Shown here piece by piece: positions 7,735 through 52,555 of a DNA stretch of 64,000 bases; the first letter of the stretch is position 1, and each line of letters opens with the position of its first letter. Under the pieces are notes generated by a model. It was not told the origin of the DNA. It worked only from the letters and a program-made list of their open reading frames with translations, and made no database searches. Both the position numbers and the translations under genes were made by a program. The stretch is from positions 2,108,001-2,172,000 of the forward strand of contig NZ_AP019846.1 in the NCBI RefSeq assembly GCF_007990635.1, in the 5' to 3' direction. This stretch comes from Leptotrichia hongkongensis. GTDB lineage: Bacteria > Fusobacteriota > Fusobacteriia > Fusobacteriales > Leptotrichiaceae.

Positions 7735-7813
7735 TCCATGACTTTTTATATTTTTAAATAAAAAGCCTCATTTATTTCTTTTTAAATAAAAGAGACTTAT
7801 AAAATCTTTATTT

Positions 7814-8415
7814 TTAAAAATTATCTAATCTTAGTATCATTGTTTTTAAGTTATTTTCTGAACTGAATTCTTTTATCAGATTAAATCCATAATTTGAATA
7901 AAATCTTATTAGTGAACTGTTATCTTCACATTCTAACCATAAATATTTTGTATTTATAATTTTTTCACGATTAATAATAATTCGTGTGCCAACGATATTA
8001 TTTCATTACCTGTTATCATATTTTTATCAGAAATATTATAATTTTTCCCTATTTGTGCCAACAAAAAACTGTTTACAACATAACTTCCATCTTTCAATCT
8101 TCTTCCACTCTGTGAAAATCTTTTCTGTTGTGTCCTACTAAGATTAAGAAAATTTTCTTTTTCAATAATTAAACTTTTATTTGCAAATGTAAAATACCCC
8201 AATATTTCCGTTCCCTCTTTATTGTAAATAATATGTGTCGCAGAAAGTGATTTTTTCTCAAAATCTATAGCTTTATTATGTAAAAAATCCTCAATACTAT
8301 TTCTATCTCTACTTCTAAAAGTCTTTAAAATTTTTTCTTTTATAAAGTCATCGTCTTTCAATTTTTCTCTTAATTTCTGCAACGATATAGTTTCACTCTT
8401 TTTCTTTATATCCAA
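7814..8415 (-). pseudogene. GNAT-family acetyltransferase, possible toxin, frameshifted near the C-terminus
   Basis: The first 153 codons read in one frame and stop at 7954. Adding one A to the A6 run at 7960-7965 joins them to a second frame that ends at 7814 and encodes 'KYLWLECEDNSSLIRFYSNYGF', the typical GNAT C-terminal strand and FY..YGF motif. The joined protein would be about 200 residues, with the GNAT core starting at 'THIIYNKEGTEILGYF'. It overlaps the upstream 60-residue ORF by 23 bp, the arrangement of antitoxin-then-GNAT-toxin pairs that acetylate aminoacyl-tRNA. Toxin function is inferred from context only. As written, the last beta strands and part of the acetyl-CoA-binding half are lost, so it is probably inactive unless the run slips. 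Confidence 0.75.
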
Positions 8416-8575
8416 AATTCTTTGCTATCCTCAAAATTTCTTCTGGGTCATCCACTATTTCAAAATCAACATCAAGTTTTTTAACTTTCTTTTTACTCTC
8501 CATTGCTTCCAGTACTTCATCTGCATATCTTGCAGGAATTCTCAAAGCATCAAGTAATATACTTTCTGTAGCCAT
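8393..8575 (-). CDS. Small acidic protein, probable antitoxin partner of the GNAT gene
   Basis: A 60-residue protein starting MATESILLDALRIPARYADEV. The start at 8575 is preferred over an upstream in-frame ATG at 8611 because an AAAGGGAG site lies at the right distance before it and the upstream residues are a low-complexity KIKLKKGR run. I do not recognise a named family. A short helical N-terminus, then a charged KKKVKKLDVDFEIVDD stretch, fit a small DNA-binding or toxin-binding antitoxin. It overlaps the GNAT gene by 23 bp and has its own consensus promoter at 8616-8644. The antitoxin label is inferred from size, overlap and partner. Confidence 0.6.
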   Translation of the reverse strand: MATESILLDALRIPARYADEVLEAMESKKKVKKLDVDFEIVDDPEEILRIAKNFGYKEKE

Positions 8576-8615
8576 AATTACCACTCTCCCTTTTTTTAAC
8601 TTTATTTTCATTTTT

Positions 8616-8644
8616 ATGATACCATATCTATTTTAGAGTGTCAA
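8616..8644 (-). promoter_or_regulatory. Promoter of the small-protein/GNAT pair
   Basis: Minus-strand TTGACA (8639-8644), a 17-bp spacer and TATCAT (8616-8621) form a near-consensus promoter inside the BREX operon. It should drive the pair and, by read-through, pglZ and brxL. Confidence 0.75.
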
Positions 8645-8674
8645 TTAGATTTCAATCTCTTTCTAAATAACCTC

Positions 8675-9076
8675 TTATTTAATGCACTTATACACAATAA
8701 CATTAATAATACAAAATATCACTAATATTAAATAAAGTAAAAATCTATTTTTATCAAAAAATCTCGTATCTCCACCTGTTTTCTTTATATTTTCTGACAT
8801 TCCAATTTTAGAAAACTCAAAATAAATCCAGCTACCTAATGTTGACCAGTAAAAAGAAATAATTCCTTCCGATTCAAGCATTATGTAAAACCAAAACTGA
8901 TATATCATATAAATTATTAAACCTAAAATAATGAACAATAACTCATTTTCTTTTCCTGTATTCTCTTTCGTTTTCTTTCTAAAGTATTCCATAATATAAA
9001 TTATGCCTAAACCCAAACCACCCGTAAGAAATAAAGCAAACATTAAGATTAATCCCATAATTAAATTTATAATCAT
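8675..9076 (-). CDS. Small multi-pass membrane protein of unknown function
   Basis: A 133-residue protein, not recognised. A glycine-rich hydrophobic N-terminal segment (about 3-30) is followed by a basic loop YFRKKTKENTGKE, two hydrophobic stretches (about 46-68 and 74-86), a charged loop, and a C-terminal membrane helix (about 112-130). An AAGGAG site precedes the ATG. An imperfect 30-bp inverted repeat lies just upstream at 9141-9170, matching one in front of the AbiEi-type gene, which suggests shared control. Small membrane proteins inside defence islands can be effectors that damage the membrane, but nothing in this sequence proves that. Confidence 0.65.
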   Translation of the reverse strand: MIINLIMGLILMFALFLTGGLGLGIIYIMEYFRKKTKENTGKENELLFIILGLIIYMIYQFWFYIMLESEGIISFYWSTLGSWIYFEFSKIGMSENIKKTGGDTRFFDKNRFLLYLILVIFCIINVIVYKCIK

Positions 9077-9140
9077 TCTTAAATCTCCTTTCTTTAATAA
9101 TGGTTTTATGTCTCTTTTTATTTAGTTGTCATTGTCCTTT

Positions 9141-9170
9141 TGTCCCAAATTTTGTATAATTTTTGAGACA
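9141..9170. promoter_or_regulatory. 30-bp imperfect inverted repeat before the membrane-protein gene (copy 1)
   Basis: The arms TGTCCCAAA and TTTGAGACA flank a centre containing GTATAAT. It has the same length, arms and GTATAA centre as the repeat at 9831-9860. It lies 65 bp before the ATG of the membrane-protein gene, where a repressor could block transcription. Confidence 0.65.
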
Positions 9171-9241
9171 GTTTACAAATAATATTTCTTTTATATTTTT
9201 ACTATTCATAAATTGCAATATTAATTACAACATTTTCCTAC

Positions 9242-9817
9242 CTATATAATTTTATAAATCCAGGCTGATGCCACTTTTCCTTCCTCAATTAATCTTTCTT
9301 TTTGTTCTTCTGTTAGTTTATTTTTTAAAATTTCTCTATGATCTTCTGTCACTTTATTTTTCCCAATAGTTTTTAATACATGAATAACTATGACTGTTTC
9401 AATAGATAATATTGGAAATTTACTTATTGTTTCTATCTTTAAACTCTATTACTGTATTTCCAAATGAAAAATCTACATATCTTCCGTCTGATATATATGT
9501 CCATTTGAAAGGTACCTGTGTCGAGAGTCCTAATAAATTTAATGCCGTATTTCCAGAAGGTGCTATTGTCCAGTTATATTTTCTGGCTATTGCCTTAGCA
9601 ACTTCATGAACTGATGAAGCTTCATACTCTTCAATCAGTTCATTGTATTTAGGATTATAATATATTCCTTTTAAAATTTTCTTTATTTTTTCTGAATTTG
9701 TAAGCCTGTTCAATGTTTTTCTTACAGTTTCATAATCAGCAATATCAAGAAAATCAATGGAAATAAATACTTTGTCATTATTAAAATTATCTATTCTATC
9801 CTTTATTTTTTTTTCAT
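9242..9817 (-). pseudogene. DUF6088/AbiEi-type antitoxin, broken by two frameshifts
   Basis: The ATG at 9817 has a good AAGGAG site but is followed by a run of nine A and an immediate stop. One more A would open the frame into IKDRIDNFNNDKVFISIDF and on through LKGIYYNPKYNEL, 'VAKAIARKYNWTIAPSGNTALNLLGLSTQ' in part, and YISDGRYVDFSFGNTVIEF. A second shift at about 9429-9446 is needed to continue to the stop at 9242, giving about 191 residues, the usual length. The winged-helix start and 'ALNLLGLSTQVP' core are typical of DUF6088, related to AbiEi antitoxins of type IV toxin-antitoxin systems. No AbiEii nucleotidyltransferase toxin is next to it, so it is an orphan. A palindrome just upstream (9831-9860) fits autorepression. 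Confidence 0.75.
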
Positions 9818-9830
9818 ACTTCTATCTCCT

Positions 9831-9860
9831 TGTCCTAATTACTGTATAACTTTTGGGACA
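9831..9860. promoter_or_regulatory. 30-bp imperfect inverted repeat before the AbiEi-type gene (copy 2)
   Basis: The arms TGTCCTAAT and TTTTGGGACA surround the centre CTGTATAAC. It ends 14 bp before the ATG of the DUF6088 gene and partly overlaps the spacer to its ribosome site. It lines up with 9141-9170 without gaps, with about three quarters of positions identical. Confidence 0.65.
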
Positions 9861-9955
9861 AAATTGCAAGGGAGGGGTTATTTAATTTGATTGTTTTGTT
9901 TTATTGTATGTTTGCACAAATAACATAAAATTTCAAGAAAAATTATAAAATTTAT

Positions 9956-12472
9956 TTACTTTTTAATCAATCCTCCTATATATTTTTTTTCATTAAGCTG
10001 AAAAGTATTCATAATTCTATCTCGACTTTTATAATCCATCGGATGTGTGGAGCAATGCATTATCAATAAATGTCTCATTAGATTTTCAGCAATTTTTGAA
10101 TAATCATACTCTTTTATTTCATTTTTTATTTCATTTATGTCAACTTCTTTCATATACCACATACGTATACCATGCTTTATAAGAGATATAGCTGGTGTTT
10201 TTTTATCTTTTGATATCTCATTTATTATTTTCATTAGATAATCAGATCCAATAGAATGAATAGTTTTATAAATTATAAAAAATATTAAATTATAACATAA
10301 CTCCCAAAATATTCTCTTAGCAAGTTCTTTAGTATTATTTTTACTTTTAATCTCTAATTTACCTATTCCCTTTTCTATTAACTCTAACATGTACTTTTGA
10401 AATTCTTCATCTTTAATTTGATAAAGTATAAAATTTAATATCCTTAAATTCAATTCTATACTATATAATATCATCTCTTTTAACAATGTTTTTTCTAAAG
10501 AACCAGGTCTATTTTTAGCTAAGTTTCCTATAACTTCTACTGTTCTGATACTTCTTCTAAAATTATAAATGTCTTCATCTTCAATTTCATTATCTGAATC
10601 AACATATAAACTTTCCTCATCAATTTCAGTATTTTCTGAAATTTCTTCTAATTGTATATTTTTTTCTCTTATTTCATTAAAATCATTAACTTCTGGTAAA
10701 AAAATTCCAATATATTATCAAAATTTATATTTATTTCTTTCATTTCATCTATTTTCAAAGTTGTAACTTTACTATTTTCAAATAACTCTAAGGAATTCAA
10801 TAATATTTCTTCAAGTAATTTTTTTCTTTTGAATGATGAGAAATAAAAATACAAATATATGAATTCCTATCTAAATGTAAATTTCTTACTAATTTATTTA
10901 TACTATTTTCTTCTTCTTTATAATGTTCGGACAAATATTTTCCAATAAAGTAATAATATAAATATGGATAGAAAAATTTTATACTTCCCAACGACGTTTT
11001 TTCAATATTTTTGATTTTATTAAACTATTGATTACTTCTTCACTATCAAATACTAAATTAAAGTTTTTTTCATAATTCTCCAAAATTTATCTATATCAGT
11101 TTGATATAATTCATATATATTTTTACTAAATACATAGTAAGATAATTCACTTAAAAAATTTAAATATATATCTATTGCATCATTTCTTATTCCGTTTTTC
11201 CAAAAATTCATTTGTATTAAAAATTGATAGCAATAGCCTTGTGACGTTATTTCTTTATCTAAATTTTTATTTGTTTCAGAATATCCAAGAACAGATAGAA
11301 GAAAAAAAGGATATGCTGGCATAATTCCATTATTAAATATCTTACCTATAGTTGTGTTCAAAAATTCTGTTCTTTTATCATTTTTCTTCATAATTTCATT
11401 TTCATTTGATACTTCGTCTTTCAAATTTGACCATTTTTTTATTAATTCATCTCTTAATTTAGGATCTAATTCCATTCTTCTGTATTTAGAAAAATTTGAT
11501 CTGTCATTTTAAATGCAGAGTGTGTGTGTGATCAGTTAACAATATTATATAATTGAACTTAAGTACATCATTTAGAATTTTATCTTTCTTTTTTAACAAA
11601 TGAAAATCATCAATAATAATAACAAACTTATCTTTTTCATTTTCAGCATTTTCTAAATTTTTATACTGTTTATTTATTATTATTTCTAATATTCTTTTAA
11701 AATTATTCGTTAAATTTTCTGATTGATTTATAAGAATTGGAATATACCCTTCATCAAATAAATCTTTTGTTATTTTTTTGGATAATGTTGTTTTCCCTGA
11801 TTGAGCATCTCCCGATATCATTATATATTTTTCATTTTCAAGTTTTTCACTTATTTTTTCTGAACTAAAAAACTTATAACTATCACTATTTTTTATATCT
11901 TTTTCTATATTTGTCAATTTAGGGTAAACAAATATATCCTCTAAAAAAAGAGTTTCTTTTGCATTATGTGAATTAGATAATATTTCCATACTATTTAATT
12001 CTTCTTTAAAATCTTTTGTAAATTCAAGTTCTTGTTCTTTTTCTTCTTTTAAACTATCTAGCAATTCATTATAACTTTCTTTATTTGTATTTATTTGTTT
12101 TAAAAATAATGCAAAAATCCCCTCTAAAAAATCAGGTAATACGCTAATTTCTGAACCTTGTATAATAGGTATCACTATTTTTGTTTTTTTATTCATATGA
12201 CTTGCTAACAACCTAGCTTCATATGCAACTCCAGTTGGATTATTACCTCTATTATCTGCTCTATTTTTATATTCTGAAGTACAAATAACAAGAATATATT
12301 TTGATTCTCTTATTGATTTCTCCATAAATTCTGTTACTTCATGTCCATGCCTTAATACACCATCATCTATAATGACCTCAAAACCATCTTTTTGTAACTT
12401 ATCCTTTAATTGTTTTACTTGATCTGTATCAGCATCATTTCTACAATATGAAATAAATATTTTCTTTTTCAT
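9956..12472 (-). pseudogene. TIR/SEFIR-STAND NTPase gene in the BREX operon, split by about six frameshifts
   Basis: The intact first part (12472-11504, 322 residues) has a TIR/SEFIR-like domain: KKIFISYCRND at the start, a CTSEY strand, and GVAYEA with Glu85 as candidate catalytic residue. A STAND/AAA NTPase follows, with Walker A GDAQSGKT (about 221-228) and Walker B FVIIIDDFH (about 283-291). The rest survives as shifted fragments: helical sensor-type sequence with KFFYPYLYYYFIGKYLSEHY and IFISHHSKEK, then a C-terminal helical region ending at 9956. Adding one base at each of 11520-11530 (GT repeat), 11472-11473, 11082-11085, 11008-11012, 10819-10825 and 10698-10704 restores one frame of about 840 residues. 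The gene starts 17 bp after pglX. TIR-STAND proteins sense infection and deplete NAD; that role is inferred. Confidence 0.75.
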
Positions 12473-12489
12473 AAATTTATATCCTCCTA

Positions 12490-46681: not shown

Positions 46682-49015
46682 TTATTTCAAAGGTTCTCCT
46701 ATAAAAATCTCAGGCATCACATAAGTTCTATTGTTATCTTCTGTTACAAATTCCAACCTTGAAACTTCCACTTTTAAACCTGTATTATGAAATCCAACAT
46801 ATGCCTTTTCTGATTTGTTTAACTGCAATAAATCCAGTACTCTCTCCCCTTTCTGATTGTAGCCTATTACTCTTGTTTTTCCAAAATTATAGTCCCTTGC
46901 CCTTTTCACATATAAATATTCTATTTTCATCGGATGTGGAAGATTAATTCCTGTTATTGCTTCCGTATTAGCTAATTCATTAGAAAAATATTTTTCTCCC
47001 TGGTAAGTTTTTACCAAAAAACTTTCCATTGGTTTTCCTACATATGAAATTTTTTCATTTTCTGAGGTAAAAAAAGGCTCAACAGGTATCAAATATTTTT
47101 TTGAATCATAAAATTTTGAGTATATTGACCAGTCTGAAGCTATTTCATTATTTCTGTAAATAACTTCATTTTTAAAAGGTGAAAATCTGATTATTAAAAA
47201 TATTATTACAATAGAAAACATATATTTTTTCAAAATTAAATTTTTATTAGATATTTTTTCTGTTTTTATGATGTATAGCAAAAGAATTAGTATTGACAAT
47301 ACAGACACCTTTATTAATATGGAATGCCATGTATTTATTGCTCCTATAGAACTGCTCCATAATTCAAAGTCCCCATTCCATATTCTCGACAGTGCATTTA
47401 TACTCGGAACACCAAAAACTATACCTAAAAGGCACAAAATAATAACACCTTCTCTGCTTCTAATTCTAATTACCAATCGTATTAAAAATATTAAAACTAT
47501 CAAAAAAATTATTAAATATAGAATGTTTAAATTTAAAATATTCTCTGATGAATCTACCCCAGGATTAAAAATATTTATAAATTGCTGTACTGTTTGATGT
47601 AAAACCGTATTCATAAATTCTGATATTTTTAATTGACTTGTAGGTCTTAAATTTACTACTGTTCCACGTCCAACTATTTTCCAAGTAACTGATTCATCTG
47701 TTATTTTCCAATCTTTGACATGTATATAAGTATATAAAATTTGTATAACAGATGCCAGCGAAACTAACCCCAAACATATCTTCTCCCTGTTTACCAGCTT
47801 CTTCCACATAAAAACTAATAGTGCCACACTTATCGGCAAAAGTACAACATACAGGAACTTTGATAATGTTAGAAGAAAAACAAGCACCATTAACAATATG
47901 TATCTGCTTCTCTTCATTTCCTTGAAATCCAAAAGACTTATATAAAACAGCGGTACTATATTCAAATATGCCATCGTTATAAACATATGAGTCTCTATAT
48001 ATGTGGAAGATATGCCAAATGCACCAAATACCATACAGACAACAAACCTGTAAAATACATCCCCGTATTTCCTGTATGGCTTCAACATGAATACTGACAC
48101 CATCATCCCCACAACCAAAACTGCAACATTTGACATCAGATATACTGTTATCTTTGCATTAAATCCAAGTTTTACTATTAGCAAGGCTATTATTCTATGA
48201 AATAGCGGAAGATAGCCTCCCTCCATCAATGTAAGATTTTTTACGATGCCGTATGTCCTTGCATTATACAGAAAGTTAAATATCTGCTCAGCAAAAGGTT
48301 CCACCCTAAAAGTCAAAAATGGAGCTCTTGAAGCTATCACAAGATAAATCAGCAGGACTGTTGTCATATATATTTTCCTGCTATTTCTTTCCTCATCCCA
48401 TAGAAGGCTCAGCAAGTAAATATAGCATAGAACTGACAGTATTGTAAATATAATCTGACCTTTCACAGTCCCATTATATTCCGAAAATAAAATTTTCTGA
48501 ACAAAAGATCGCTGACTAGGCTCTCCATTTTGTATCATCTCGCTATACATTATATCCGCCGTCTTATGCATTGAAACAGCATTTCCAATTGTGCCGTCGA
48601 TACCTTCAACTCTAAGCACTGCTTCTCCTGGCTTTAAGCCTCTTATATTTAAATAGTGGTAGTCATTGTCCTTTATTTTCGCAACATCAACTATTTCGCT
48701 GCTTTTCCTGTTACCTTGGGTAATCTCTATTTTTATTTTCCCAGTATTTTTTCTTCTATAAGTTGCAAACATTACTCCATATTTTTTTACATGTTTTGGA
48801 ATATATATTCTTTCCTGAAAAGAGGAGCCTCTGATAATCTCTCCTACAAGATCCAGCTCGTACTGTTTTGACACTACCTCCCTGTCAGCCCCGTTTTTTA
48901 CGGAAACAAAGGAGGGAAGTATTATTCCTGCTACAAGAAAAAATATAGTCAAAAATAACCTTACCTTGTCTCTTGAATAATATTCAGTGGACCTCTTTAA
49001 TTTCTTAGTTATCAT
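46682..49015 (-). CDS. GtrS-like large membrane glycosyltransferase, copy 2
   Basis: 777 residues. One N-terminal helix (about 19-38), an extracytoplasmic beta-rich domain (about 45-175), about ten membrane helices (about 185-600) and a C-terminal extracytoplasmic domain (about 610-777). This GT-C-like plan and the neighbouring gtrB/gtrA-like genes suggest it moves a sugar from a lipid carrier onto the polymer outside the membrane. It is almost identical to the copy at 50279-52555 except in two patches (about residues 405-445 and 560-650). RBS AGGAGCTAAAA is part of the duplicated segment. No named family is certain. Confidence 0.75.
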   Translation of the reverse strand: MITKKLKRSTEYYSRDKVRLFLTIFFLVAGIILPSFVSVKNGADREVVSKQYELDLVGEIIRGSSFQERIYIPKHVKKYGVMFATYRRKNTGKIKIEITQGNRKSSEIVDVAKIKDNDYHYLNIRGLKPGEAVLRVEGIDGTIGNAVSMHKTADIMYSEMIQNGEPSQRSFVQKILFSEYNGTVKGQIIFTILSVLCYIYLLSLLWDEERNSRKIYMTTVLLIYLVIASRAPFLTFRVEPFAEQIFNFLYNARTYGIVKNLTLMEGGYLPLFHRIIALLIVKLGFNAKITVYLMSNVAVLVVGMMVSVFMLKPYRKYGDVFYRFVVCMVFGAFGISSTYIETHMFITMAYLNIVPLFYISLLDFKEMKRSRYILLMVLVFLLTLSKFLYVVLLPISVALLVFMWKKLVNREKICLGLVSLASVIQILYTYIHVKDWKITDESVTWKIVGRGTVVNLRPTSQLKISEFMNTVLHQTVQQFINIFNPGVDSSENILNLNILYLIIFLIVLIFLIRLVIRIRSREGVIILCLLGIVFGVPSINALSRIWNGDFELWSSSIGAINTWHSILIKVSVLSILILLLYIIKTEKISNKNLILKKYMFSIVIIFLIIRFSPFKNEVIYRNNEIASDWSIYSKFYDSKKYLIPVEPFFTSENEKISYVGKPMESFLVKTYQGEKYFSNELANTEAITGINLPHPMKIEYLYVKRARDYNFGKTRVIGYNQKGERVLDLLQLNKSEKAYVGFHNTGLKVEVSRLEFVTEDNNRTYVMPEIFIGEPLK

Positions 49016-50278: not shown

Positions 50279-52555
50279 TTATTTCAAAGGTTCTCCTATA
50301 AAAATCTCAGGCATCACATAAGTTCTATTGTTATCTTCTGTTACAAATTCCAACCTTGAAACTTCCACTTTTAAACCTGTATTATGAAATCCAACATATG
50401 CCTTTTCTGATTTGTTTAACTGCAATAAATCCAGTACTCTCTCCCCTTTCTGATTATAGCCTATTACTCTTGTTTTTCCAAAATTATAGTCTCTCGCCCT
50501 TTTCACATATAAATATTCTATTTTCATCGGATGTGGAAGATTGATTCCTGTTATTGCTTCCGTATTAGCTAACTCATCAAAAAAATATTTTTTCCCTTGA
50601 AAATTTTCTATTGCAAAATTTTCTGATTTTTTTCCTATATATGATATTTTTTCATTTTCTGATATAAAATAAGGCTCAACAGGTATCAAATATTTTTTTA
50701 AATCATAAAATTTTGAGTATATTGACCAATCTGAAGCCATTTCATCATTCTTAAATATAGCATTATCTTTGAAAGGGGAAAATCTGATTATCAGAAAGGC
50801 TATTAATATATACGATAAATATCTATTTATATCAGTTTTTCTAAGTCTACTATTTTTTGTTGTAATATATGGCATTAGGACTAATATTGACAATATAGAT
50901 ACCTTTATTAATATGGAATGCCATGTATTTATTGCTCCTATAGAACTGTTCCATAATTCAAAGTCCCCATTCCATATTCTCGACAGTGCATTTATACTCG
51001 GAATACCAAAAACTATGCCTAAAAGGCACAAAATAATAACACTTTCTCTGCTTCTAATTCTAATTACCAATCGTATCAAAAATATTAAAACTATCAAAAA
51101 AATTATTAAATATAGAATGTTTAAATTTAAAATATTCTCTGATGAGTCTATCCCAGAATTAAAAATATTTATAAATTGCTGTACTGTTTGATGAATAACA
51201 ACATTTGCTGCTTCAATTATGTTAAATTTAGGTTCATCTCCATTTATCCATAGTTTTCTATTTCTATAAGTATACAAAATTTGTATAACAGATGCTAGCG
51301 AAACTAACCCCAAACATATCTTCTCCCTGTTTGCCAGCTTCTTCCACATAAAAACTAATAGTGCCACACTTATCGGCAAAAGTACAACATACAGGAACTT
51401 TGATAATGTTAGAAGAAAAACAAGCACCATTAACAATATGTATCTGCTTCTCTTCATTTCCTTGAAATCCAAAAGACTTATATAAAACAGCGGTACTATA
51501 TTCAAATATGCCATCGTTATAAACATATGAGTCTCTATATATGTGGAAGATATGCCAAATGCACCAAATACCATACAGACAACAAACCTGTAAAATACAT
51601 CCCCGTATTTCCTGTATGGCTTCAACATGAATACTGACACCATCATCCCCACAACCAAAACTGCAACATTTGACATCAGATATACTGTTATCTTTGCATT
51701 AAATCCAAGTTTTACTATTAGCAAGGCTATTATTCTATGAAATAGCGGAAGATAGCCTCCCTCCATCAATGTAAGATTTTTTACGATGCCGTATGTCCTT
51801 GCATTATACAGAAAGTTAAATATCTGCTCAGCAAAAGGTTCCACCCTAAAAGTCAAAAATGGAGCTCTTGAAGCTATCACAAGATAAATCAGCAGGACTG
51901 TTGTCATATATATTTTCCTGCTATTTCTTTCCTCATCCCATAGAAGGCTCAGCAAGTAAATATAGCATAGAACTGACAGTATTGTAAATATAATCTGACC
52001 TTTCACAGTCCCATTATATTCCGAAAATAAAATTTTCTGAACAAAAGATCGCTGACTAGGCTCTCCATTTTGTATCATCTCGCTATACATTATATCCGCC
52101 GTCTTATGCATTGAAACAGCATTTCCAATTGTGCCGTCGATACCTTCAACTCTAAGCACTGCTTCTCCTGGCTTTAAGCCTCTTATATTTAAATAGTGGT
52201 AGTCATTGTCCTTTATTTTCGCAACATCAACTATTTCGCTGCTTTTCCTGTTACCTTGGGTAATCTCTATTTTTATTTTCCCAGTATTTTTTCTTCTATA
52301 AGTTGCAAACATTACTCCATATTTTTTTACATGTTTTGGAATATATATTCTTTCCTGAAAAGAAGAGCCTCTGATAATCTCTCCTACAAGATCTAGTTCG
52401 TACTGTTTTGACACTACCTCCCTGTCAGCCCCGTTTTTTATGGAAACAAAGGAGGGAAGTATTATTCCTGCTACAAGAAAAAATATAGTCAAAAATAACC
52501 TTACCTTGTCTCTTGAATAATATTCAGTGGACCTCTTTAATTTCTTAGTTATCAT
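50279..52555 (-). CDS. GtrS-like large membrane glycosyltransferase, copy 1
   Basis: 758 residues with the same architecture as the copy at 46682-49015. Residues 1 to about 404 differ at only two or three positions. The 19-residue shortening is in the patch after YTYRNRKLW, and a second different patch spans about 545-635. The C-terminal ~110 residues are again identical. It is first in a set GtrS-GtrA-GtrB-GtrS. Different middle patches on identical shells suggest different acceptor or donor choice, or ongoing gene conversion; both are inference. Confidence 0.75.
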   Translation of the reverse strand: MITKKLKRSTEYYSRDKVRLFLTIFFLVAGIILPSFVSIKNGADREVVSKQYELDLVGEIIRGSSFQERIYIPKHVKKYGVMFATYRRKNTGKIKIEITQGNRKSSEIVDVAKIKDNDYHYLNIRGLKPGEAVLRVEGIDGTIGNAVSMHKTADIMYSEMIQNGEPSQRSFVQKILFSEYNGTVKGQIIFTILSVLCYIYLLSLLWDEERNSRKIYMTTVLLIYLVIASRAPFLTFRVEPFAEQIFNFLYNARTYGIVKNLTLMEGGYLPLFHRIIALLIVKLGFNAKITVYLMSNVAVLVVGMMVSVFMLKPYRKYGDVFYRFVVCMVFGAFGISSTYIETHMFITMAYLNIVPLFYISLLDFKEMKRSRYILLMVLVFLLTLSKFLYVVLLPISVALLVFMWKKLANREKICLGLVSLASVIQILYTYRNRKLWINGDEPKFNIIEAANVVIHQTVQQFINIFNSGIDSSENILNLNILYLIIFLIVLIFLIRLVIRIRSRESVIILCLLGIVFGIPSINALSRIWNGDFELWNSSIGAINTWHSILIKVSILSILVLMPYITTKNSRLRKTDINRYLSYILIAFLIIRFSPFKDNAIFKNDEMASDWSIYSKFYDLKKYLIPVEPYFISENEKISYIGKKSENFAIENFQGKKYFFDELANTEAITGINLPHPMKIEYLYVKRARDYNFGKTRVIGYNQKGERVLDLLQLNKSEKAYVGFHNTGLKVEVSRLEFVTEDNNRTYVMPEIFIGEPLK

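Follow-up and report, generated by a model that had tools for sequence, protein, structure and literature searches.

A probable decayed DUF6088-AbiEii module in a Leptotrichia BREX locus, and an operator design with a three-residue recognition code across the DUF6088 family

The window examined in this study, a 64,000-nucleotide stretch of Leptotrichia hongkongensis DNA, contains a BREX locus whose slot between pglX and pglZ (7735-12489) carries a TIR-STAND gene and a DUF6088 gene of the AbiEi antitoxin/repressor type. Two 30-bp inverted repeats lie within this slot. Repeat A, at 9141-9170, reads TGTCCCAAATTTTGTATAATTTTTGAGACA on the plus strand and TGTCTCAAAAATTATACAAAATTTGGGACA on the minus strand; repeat B, at 9831-9860, reads TGTCCTAATTACTGTATAACTTTTGGGACA and TGTCCCAAAAGTTATACAGTAATTAGGACA, respectively. 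B is the putative operator of the DUF6088 gene, and A a second copy of the same operator type. The repeats lie 690 bp apart in the same orientation, align without gaps at 24 of 30 positions and have a GTATAA centre in common, and each is slightly imperfect, with five of its six outer pairs matched. When 64-kb windows with matched dinucleotide composition were simulated, the best match to repeat B reached 19-21 of 30 by chance, and in the strain's own 2.28-Mb genome A and B are the only sequences that fit a degenerate pattern with up to three mismatches. A search of the genus and family for further copies returned a few weak matches and one near-palindrome, in genome G005, near unrelated genes. 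The pair of matching repeats described in an earlier note on this DNA is thus confirmed. Their placement just upstream of minus-strand start codons holds for B, which ends 13 nt before the DUF6088 ATG (9817-9815), but only loosely for A, which ends 64 nt before the ATG (9076) of a gene for a membrane protein.

That second gene (8675..9076, minus strand) encodes 133 amino acids and has intact orthologues in four other genomes of the genus. Searches of Pfam, NCBIfam, PADLOC and plasmids gave no match to its product. Its leader (9091..9137, minus strand) directly follows repeat A. Further along, 7954-8611 holds a small antitoxin-like gene and an acetyltransferase-like gene, the latter probably truncated since it encodes 153 aa here versus about 200 aa in genomes G008, G004 and G001; a strong promoter-like site, TTGACA-17-TATCAT, is found at 8644-8616. 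On the other side of the DUF6088 gene, the TIR-STAND (bSEFIR-like) gene at 9956-12472 is broken into several frames. Elsewhere in the window, a sugar-polymer gene cluster includes two membrane proteins of 777 and 758 aa (46682-49015 and 50279-52555) with near-identical N-termini, apparently a recent duplication.

The DUF6088 gene (9242..9817, minus strand) was assigned from a PF19570 match, three-frame translations and comparison with a 68%-identical, intact protein of Oceanivirga. The Pfam match exceeds the cut-off (E 6.4e-28, 98 bits) across one internal stop, with the frame 9815-9423 aligned to positions 1-130 of 172, and the PADLOC AbiEi profile recognizes the 68%-identical relative with an E value of 5.5e-66. 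Three-frame translations show that the frame breaks twice, in an A-run immediately following the ATG and near 9420, and that the C-terminus is short; as sequenced, the gene is therefore a pseudogene. A sequencing error at the A-run, or assembly errors, could possibly stand in for decay. The second break is at no long homopolymer, and the slot holds further split genes (the TIR-STAND gene and the acetyltransferase-like gene at 7954-8415), as do other parts of the window, which makes genuine decay likely. The fold was examined on an intact relative, L027, in place of the broken protein of the window. Its AlphaFold2 model (pLDDT 93) has the AbiEi fold with an N-terminal winged helix, and Foldseek gave Streptococcus agalactiae AbiEi (6y8q; E 9e-5, probability 1.00) as the best solved match, followed by Rv2827c of Mycobacterium tuberculosis (1zel); sequence searches of solved structures found no match, so that AbiEi was reached by fold search alone. 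Across 13 genomes from the genus this is the sole DUF6088 gene, and viral contigs contained no relative of its group. No AbiEii reading frame lies between 9242 and 9141, the position at which this toxin gene is adjacent downstream in most of 80 DUF6088 loci from other species.

These 80 loci define the context in which the two repeats can be read. Their upstream regions hold palindromes 30 bp long in total, or of neighbouring even lengths; at 30 bp, 76 of the 80 score at least 12 and none of the shuffled controls does. When the aligned list was inspected by eye, the 30-bp palindrome stood at the same place in 79 loci; the exception, L106, is the most distant member (34% identity). The earlier note had taken absence of the motif from other DUF6088 genes as evidence against its proposal, and on this point the proposal stands. 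The layout around the palindrome is equally constant: a -35 element (TTGAAC, TTGCAA or similar) that precedes the repeat by nine bases, a -10 element (TATAAT, TACAAT) at repeat positions 15-20, and a ribosome-binding site, AAGGAGG, immediately 3' of the repeat, followed by the start codon. Repeat B has every element of this arrangement over the antitoxin promoter, including a -35-like TTGCAA (9864..9869, minus strand) at the conserved offset of nine bases and a -10-like TACAGT (9846-9841, minus strand) at repeat positions 15-20, with a spacer of 17. Outside the 80-locus set, plasmid relatives from Anaerococcus, Lysinibacillus and the alphaproteobacteria Leisingera, Phaeobacter, Sphingobium and Bradyrhizobium have a palindrome at a similar distance. 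In the papers searched, we found no account of a DUF6088 operator or of a 3'-end repeat.

The outer arms of these operators fall into classes (TGTCCC, TGCACC, TCTCCC/CCTCCC, TGTCAC, CGTCAG, CGTTAG and TGTCGC), and the class can be read from the protein. The protein columns with the highest mutual information with arm positions are residues 33, 40, 43 and 37, all of which are within, or at the end of, a helix predicted by the model at 32-44, just before the wing. The triad 33/37/40 separates the arm classes almost without error: EKN goes with TGTCCC (24 of 24), AQK with TGTCAC (16 of 16), ERN with TCTCCC/CCTCCC (9 of 10), and ESN with TGCACC apart from one TACACC. Relatedness does not explain this link, because, when comparison is limited to proteins with 90% or more identity outside the helix, the triad is shared by 94% of 224 pairs with the same arm class and by 2% of 260 pairs with different classes. 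The window protein has the EKN triad, which predicts TGTCCC arms, and TGTCCC is present; both window repeats belong to this class, each with one base off in one arm. The operator design found at 79 of 80 relatives, together with an arm class that matches the recognition helix, strongly supports the proposal, made at the level of sequence, that DUF6088 proteins of this kind repress their own gene through repeat B. That the protein would bind the repeat is inferred by analogy with AbiEi of S. agalactiae (PMC3985639), S. suis (PMC11062541) and M. tuberculosis (PMC7319586), for which binding has been measured.

A second 30-bp repeat is a recurrent feature of the other end of these modules. It lies 0-23 bp past the AbiEii stop codon in 31 of the 62 AbiEii-bearing loci, a count that leaves out L059, which was also flagged by the script and is an unrelated hairpin. 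These 3'-end repeats have no -35 element, and their arm class often differs from that of the module's operator, as in many Peptoniphilaceae elements in which TCTCCC stands behind TGTCAC or TGTCCC modules; the two classes agree in L028-L030, L044, L067, L080 and L047 and its relatives. In intact modules the 3'-end repeat could possibly serve in looping between the ends, act as a roadblock or be a relic of earlier modules. Loci that have lost the toxin retain both repeats: in L087, AbiEii is mostly deleted and the repeats are 773 bp apart, and in L078 it is truncated, with the second repeat at its end. The window has the same anatomy, with repeat B, DUF6088, no AbiEii and repeat A in succession. 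Relic operators do persist, since a solo copy in Oceanivirga (L006:2307-2336), between a DUF6088 gene and a divergent mscL-like gene, is followed by what appears to be a decayed DUF6088 5' end. In loci of Streptococcus and Veillonella (L031-L036), DUF6088 has its operator and no AbiEii nearby, an arrangement of orphan antitoxin-repressors. No toxin remnant is demonstrable between DUF6088 and repeat A; one candidate for an AbiEii tail beside repeat A, an 18-nt match to L044, was rejected because it was not significant against shuffles (0.07).

Comparison within the genus separates repeat A from the gene that it precedes. The membrane gene is intact in 5 of 13 genomes, and its orthologues in G008, G004, G001 and G011 are 88-95% identical; none of these four genomes has a DUF6088 gene, which is thus no regular companion of the membrane gene. 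The counterpart of repeat A is slightly decayed in G011, strongly altered in G008 and absent from G001 and G004. The leader is the same with or without the repeat, and similarity between the genomes begins at the 3' edge of repeat A, so that repeat A did not belong to the membrane gene ancestrally. (The leader was also considered as a dispersed repeat and rejected, as it occurs at most once per genome.) In each of the genus's four BREX-bearing genomes the repeat is found at the edge of the pglX-pglZ slot, and the cargo differs from one to the next: besides TIR-STAND and DUF6088 in the window, a 328-aa nucleotidyltransferase-like gene and a 298-aa membrane protein in G008, two genes of no assigned kind and a HicAB-like pair in G002, and none in G011. 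G002 lacks the membrane gene yet keeps the repeat, with a symmetric change in its two arms (TATCCC/GGGATA), a hint that some protein exerts selection on it.

Taken together, we consider it likely that the window holds a decayed DUF6088-AbiEii (AbiE-like) module in the variable cargo slot of a BREX locus, with B as its promoter-operator and A, most likely, as the module-end repeat left after loss of the toxin. The window fits such a history because half of the intact modules have a second repeat and toxin-deleted ones keep both. An intact DUF6088 repressor would bind the two 6-bp arms of repeat B as a symmetric pair, covering the -10 element and the transcription start and thereby shutting off its own gene; this scheme rests on the comparative promoter architecture. 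Repeat A, a second operator of the same family, would have stood at the far end of the module until the toxin gene was deleted, and would now abut the leader of an unrelated unit of membrane protein and toxin-antitoxin genes. Neither repeat is likely to be bound by DUF6088 in this strain if the sequence is correct, because the gene is frameshifted. Several observations count against the favoured origin of A. Its interior is nearer to the promoter-type than to the downstream-type repeats (position weights, log2 odds -3.5), and it has a weak -35. The failure to show an AbiEii remnant beside it and the symmetric arm change in G002 point the same way, and its occurrence in the same BREX slot without DUF6088, in G011, G002 and, in degenerate form, G008, calls for several losses or a pre-existing site. 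The next choice is that A is a relic promoter from a sister copy of the module; it may be this, or the membrane gene may have recruited it for itself.

The earlier note had gone further, proposing that the membrane gene, too, is under DUF6088 control and that its product is a candidate for the cognate effector in place of AbiEii. Such control is possible in principle. Repeat A has the full geometry and EKN-class arms, its interior is promoter-like, and a weak promoter can be drawn on it from a possible -35 TTGTAA (9173..9178, minus strand) and TACAAA (9156-9151) with a spacer of 16; moreover, a published AbiEi binds second sites, at oriT and another toxin-antitoxin promoter (PMC11062541). But DUF6088 is a pseudogene here and is missing from each of the four further genomes in which the membrane gene occurs; two of these also lack the repeat, and no membrane-protein partner recurs among the 80 DUF6088 loci. 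We therefore regard it as rather unlikely that DUF6088 acts through repeat A, as a working operator, on the membrane gene and possibly on the toxin-antitoxin pair and pglZ-brxL further along, with the membrane gene either a second target or a replacement effector. The effector role in particular is unsupported: DUF6088 occurs in one of five membrane-gene genomes, second repeats recur at the 3' ends of DUF6088-AbiEii modules, and no alternative partner gene recurs in the toxin-less loci.

The constancy of the repeat at the slot edge in four of four BREX-bearing genomes, and the symmetric arm change in G002, would also suit an operator of the pglZ-side unit bound by some regulator of related specificity, with DUF6088 a coincidental neighbour. 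This is quite improbable, given that the strain's genome holds no further matching repeat, and hence none before brxA, that arm pairing decays in G011 and G008, and that repeat A matches a DUF6088 operator class so strongly. Least credible of all is that no protein is involved and the repeats are chance palindromes or RNA hairpins serving as terminators. The region is AT-rich and the arms are imperfect, but the match between A and B is far above that in simulated windows, no terminator-like site was found, and the repeats cover the -10 element, leaving most of each outside the transcript; conservation across the family already refutes this reading for repeat B.

AbiE-type systems are widespread defence-linked toxin-antitoxin pairs, and operators have been described for very few of them. 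The DUF6088 family now has a defined operator, of 30 bp and fixed promoter layout, and a three-residue code that predicts its arms from the protein, by which orphan operators, cross-talk between co-resident elements and relic modules become findable by sequence. This is a more interesting outcome than the effector proposal, and a decayed module accounts for the window without the invention of a new effector. A speculative extension, which we hold to be unlikely, is that near-identical DUF6088 antitoxins swap recognition helix and operator arms to form incompatibility-like groups, and that solo or module-end operators, scattered through defence islands and conjugative elements, allow a module, whether resident or incoming, to control its neighbours, here the pglZ side of BREX.

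Among the closest known systems is the type IV AbiE of S. agalactiae, with its autoregulating AbiEi (PMC3985639, PMC7319586). The DUF6088 relatives share with it the AbiEi fold (6y8q), a winged-helix repressor whose gene precedes AbiEii in an operon of two genes, and inverted repeats over the promoter. The operators differ, in that S. agalactiae has 23-3-23 bp repeats covering the -35 element (PMC3985639), whereas the DUF6088 operator is a single palindrome of 30 bp that lies close to the start codon and has arms of 6 to 12 bp; the window, moreover, lacks the toxin gene, and its antitoxin frame is broken. AbiE of the S. suis element ICESsuHN105 is similar in that its AbiEi binds not only the repeats of its own promoter but also comparable sites elsewhere on the element (PMC11062541). 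Those second sites are oriT and another toxin-antitoxin promoter, unlike the second repeat of the window, which would be a module end in a chromosomal BREX slot. The M. tuberculosis pair Rv2827c-Rv2826c likewise has an AbiEi-like antitoxin and several inverted repeats in its promoter; in the available text of its description (PMC7319586) there are four 23-bp repeats, all upstream and none described at the 3' end, in contrast to the DUF6088 modules, half of which have a second repeat behind the toxin gene.
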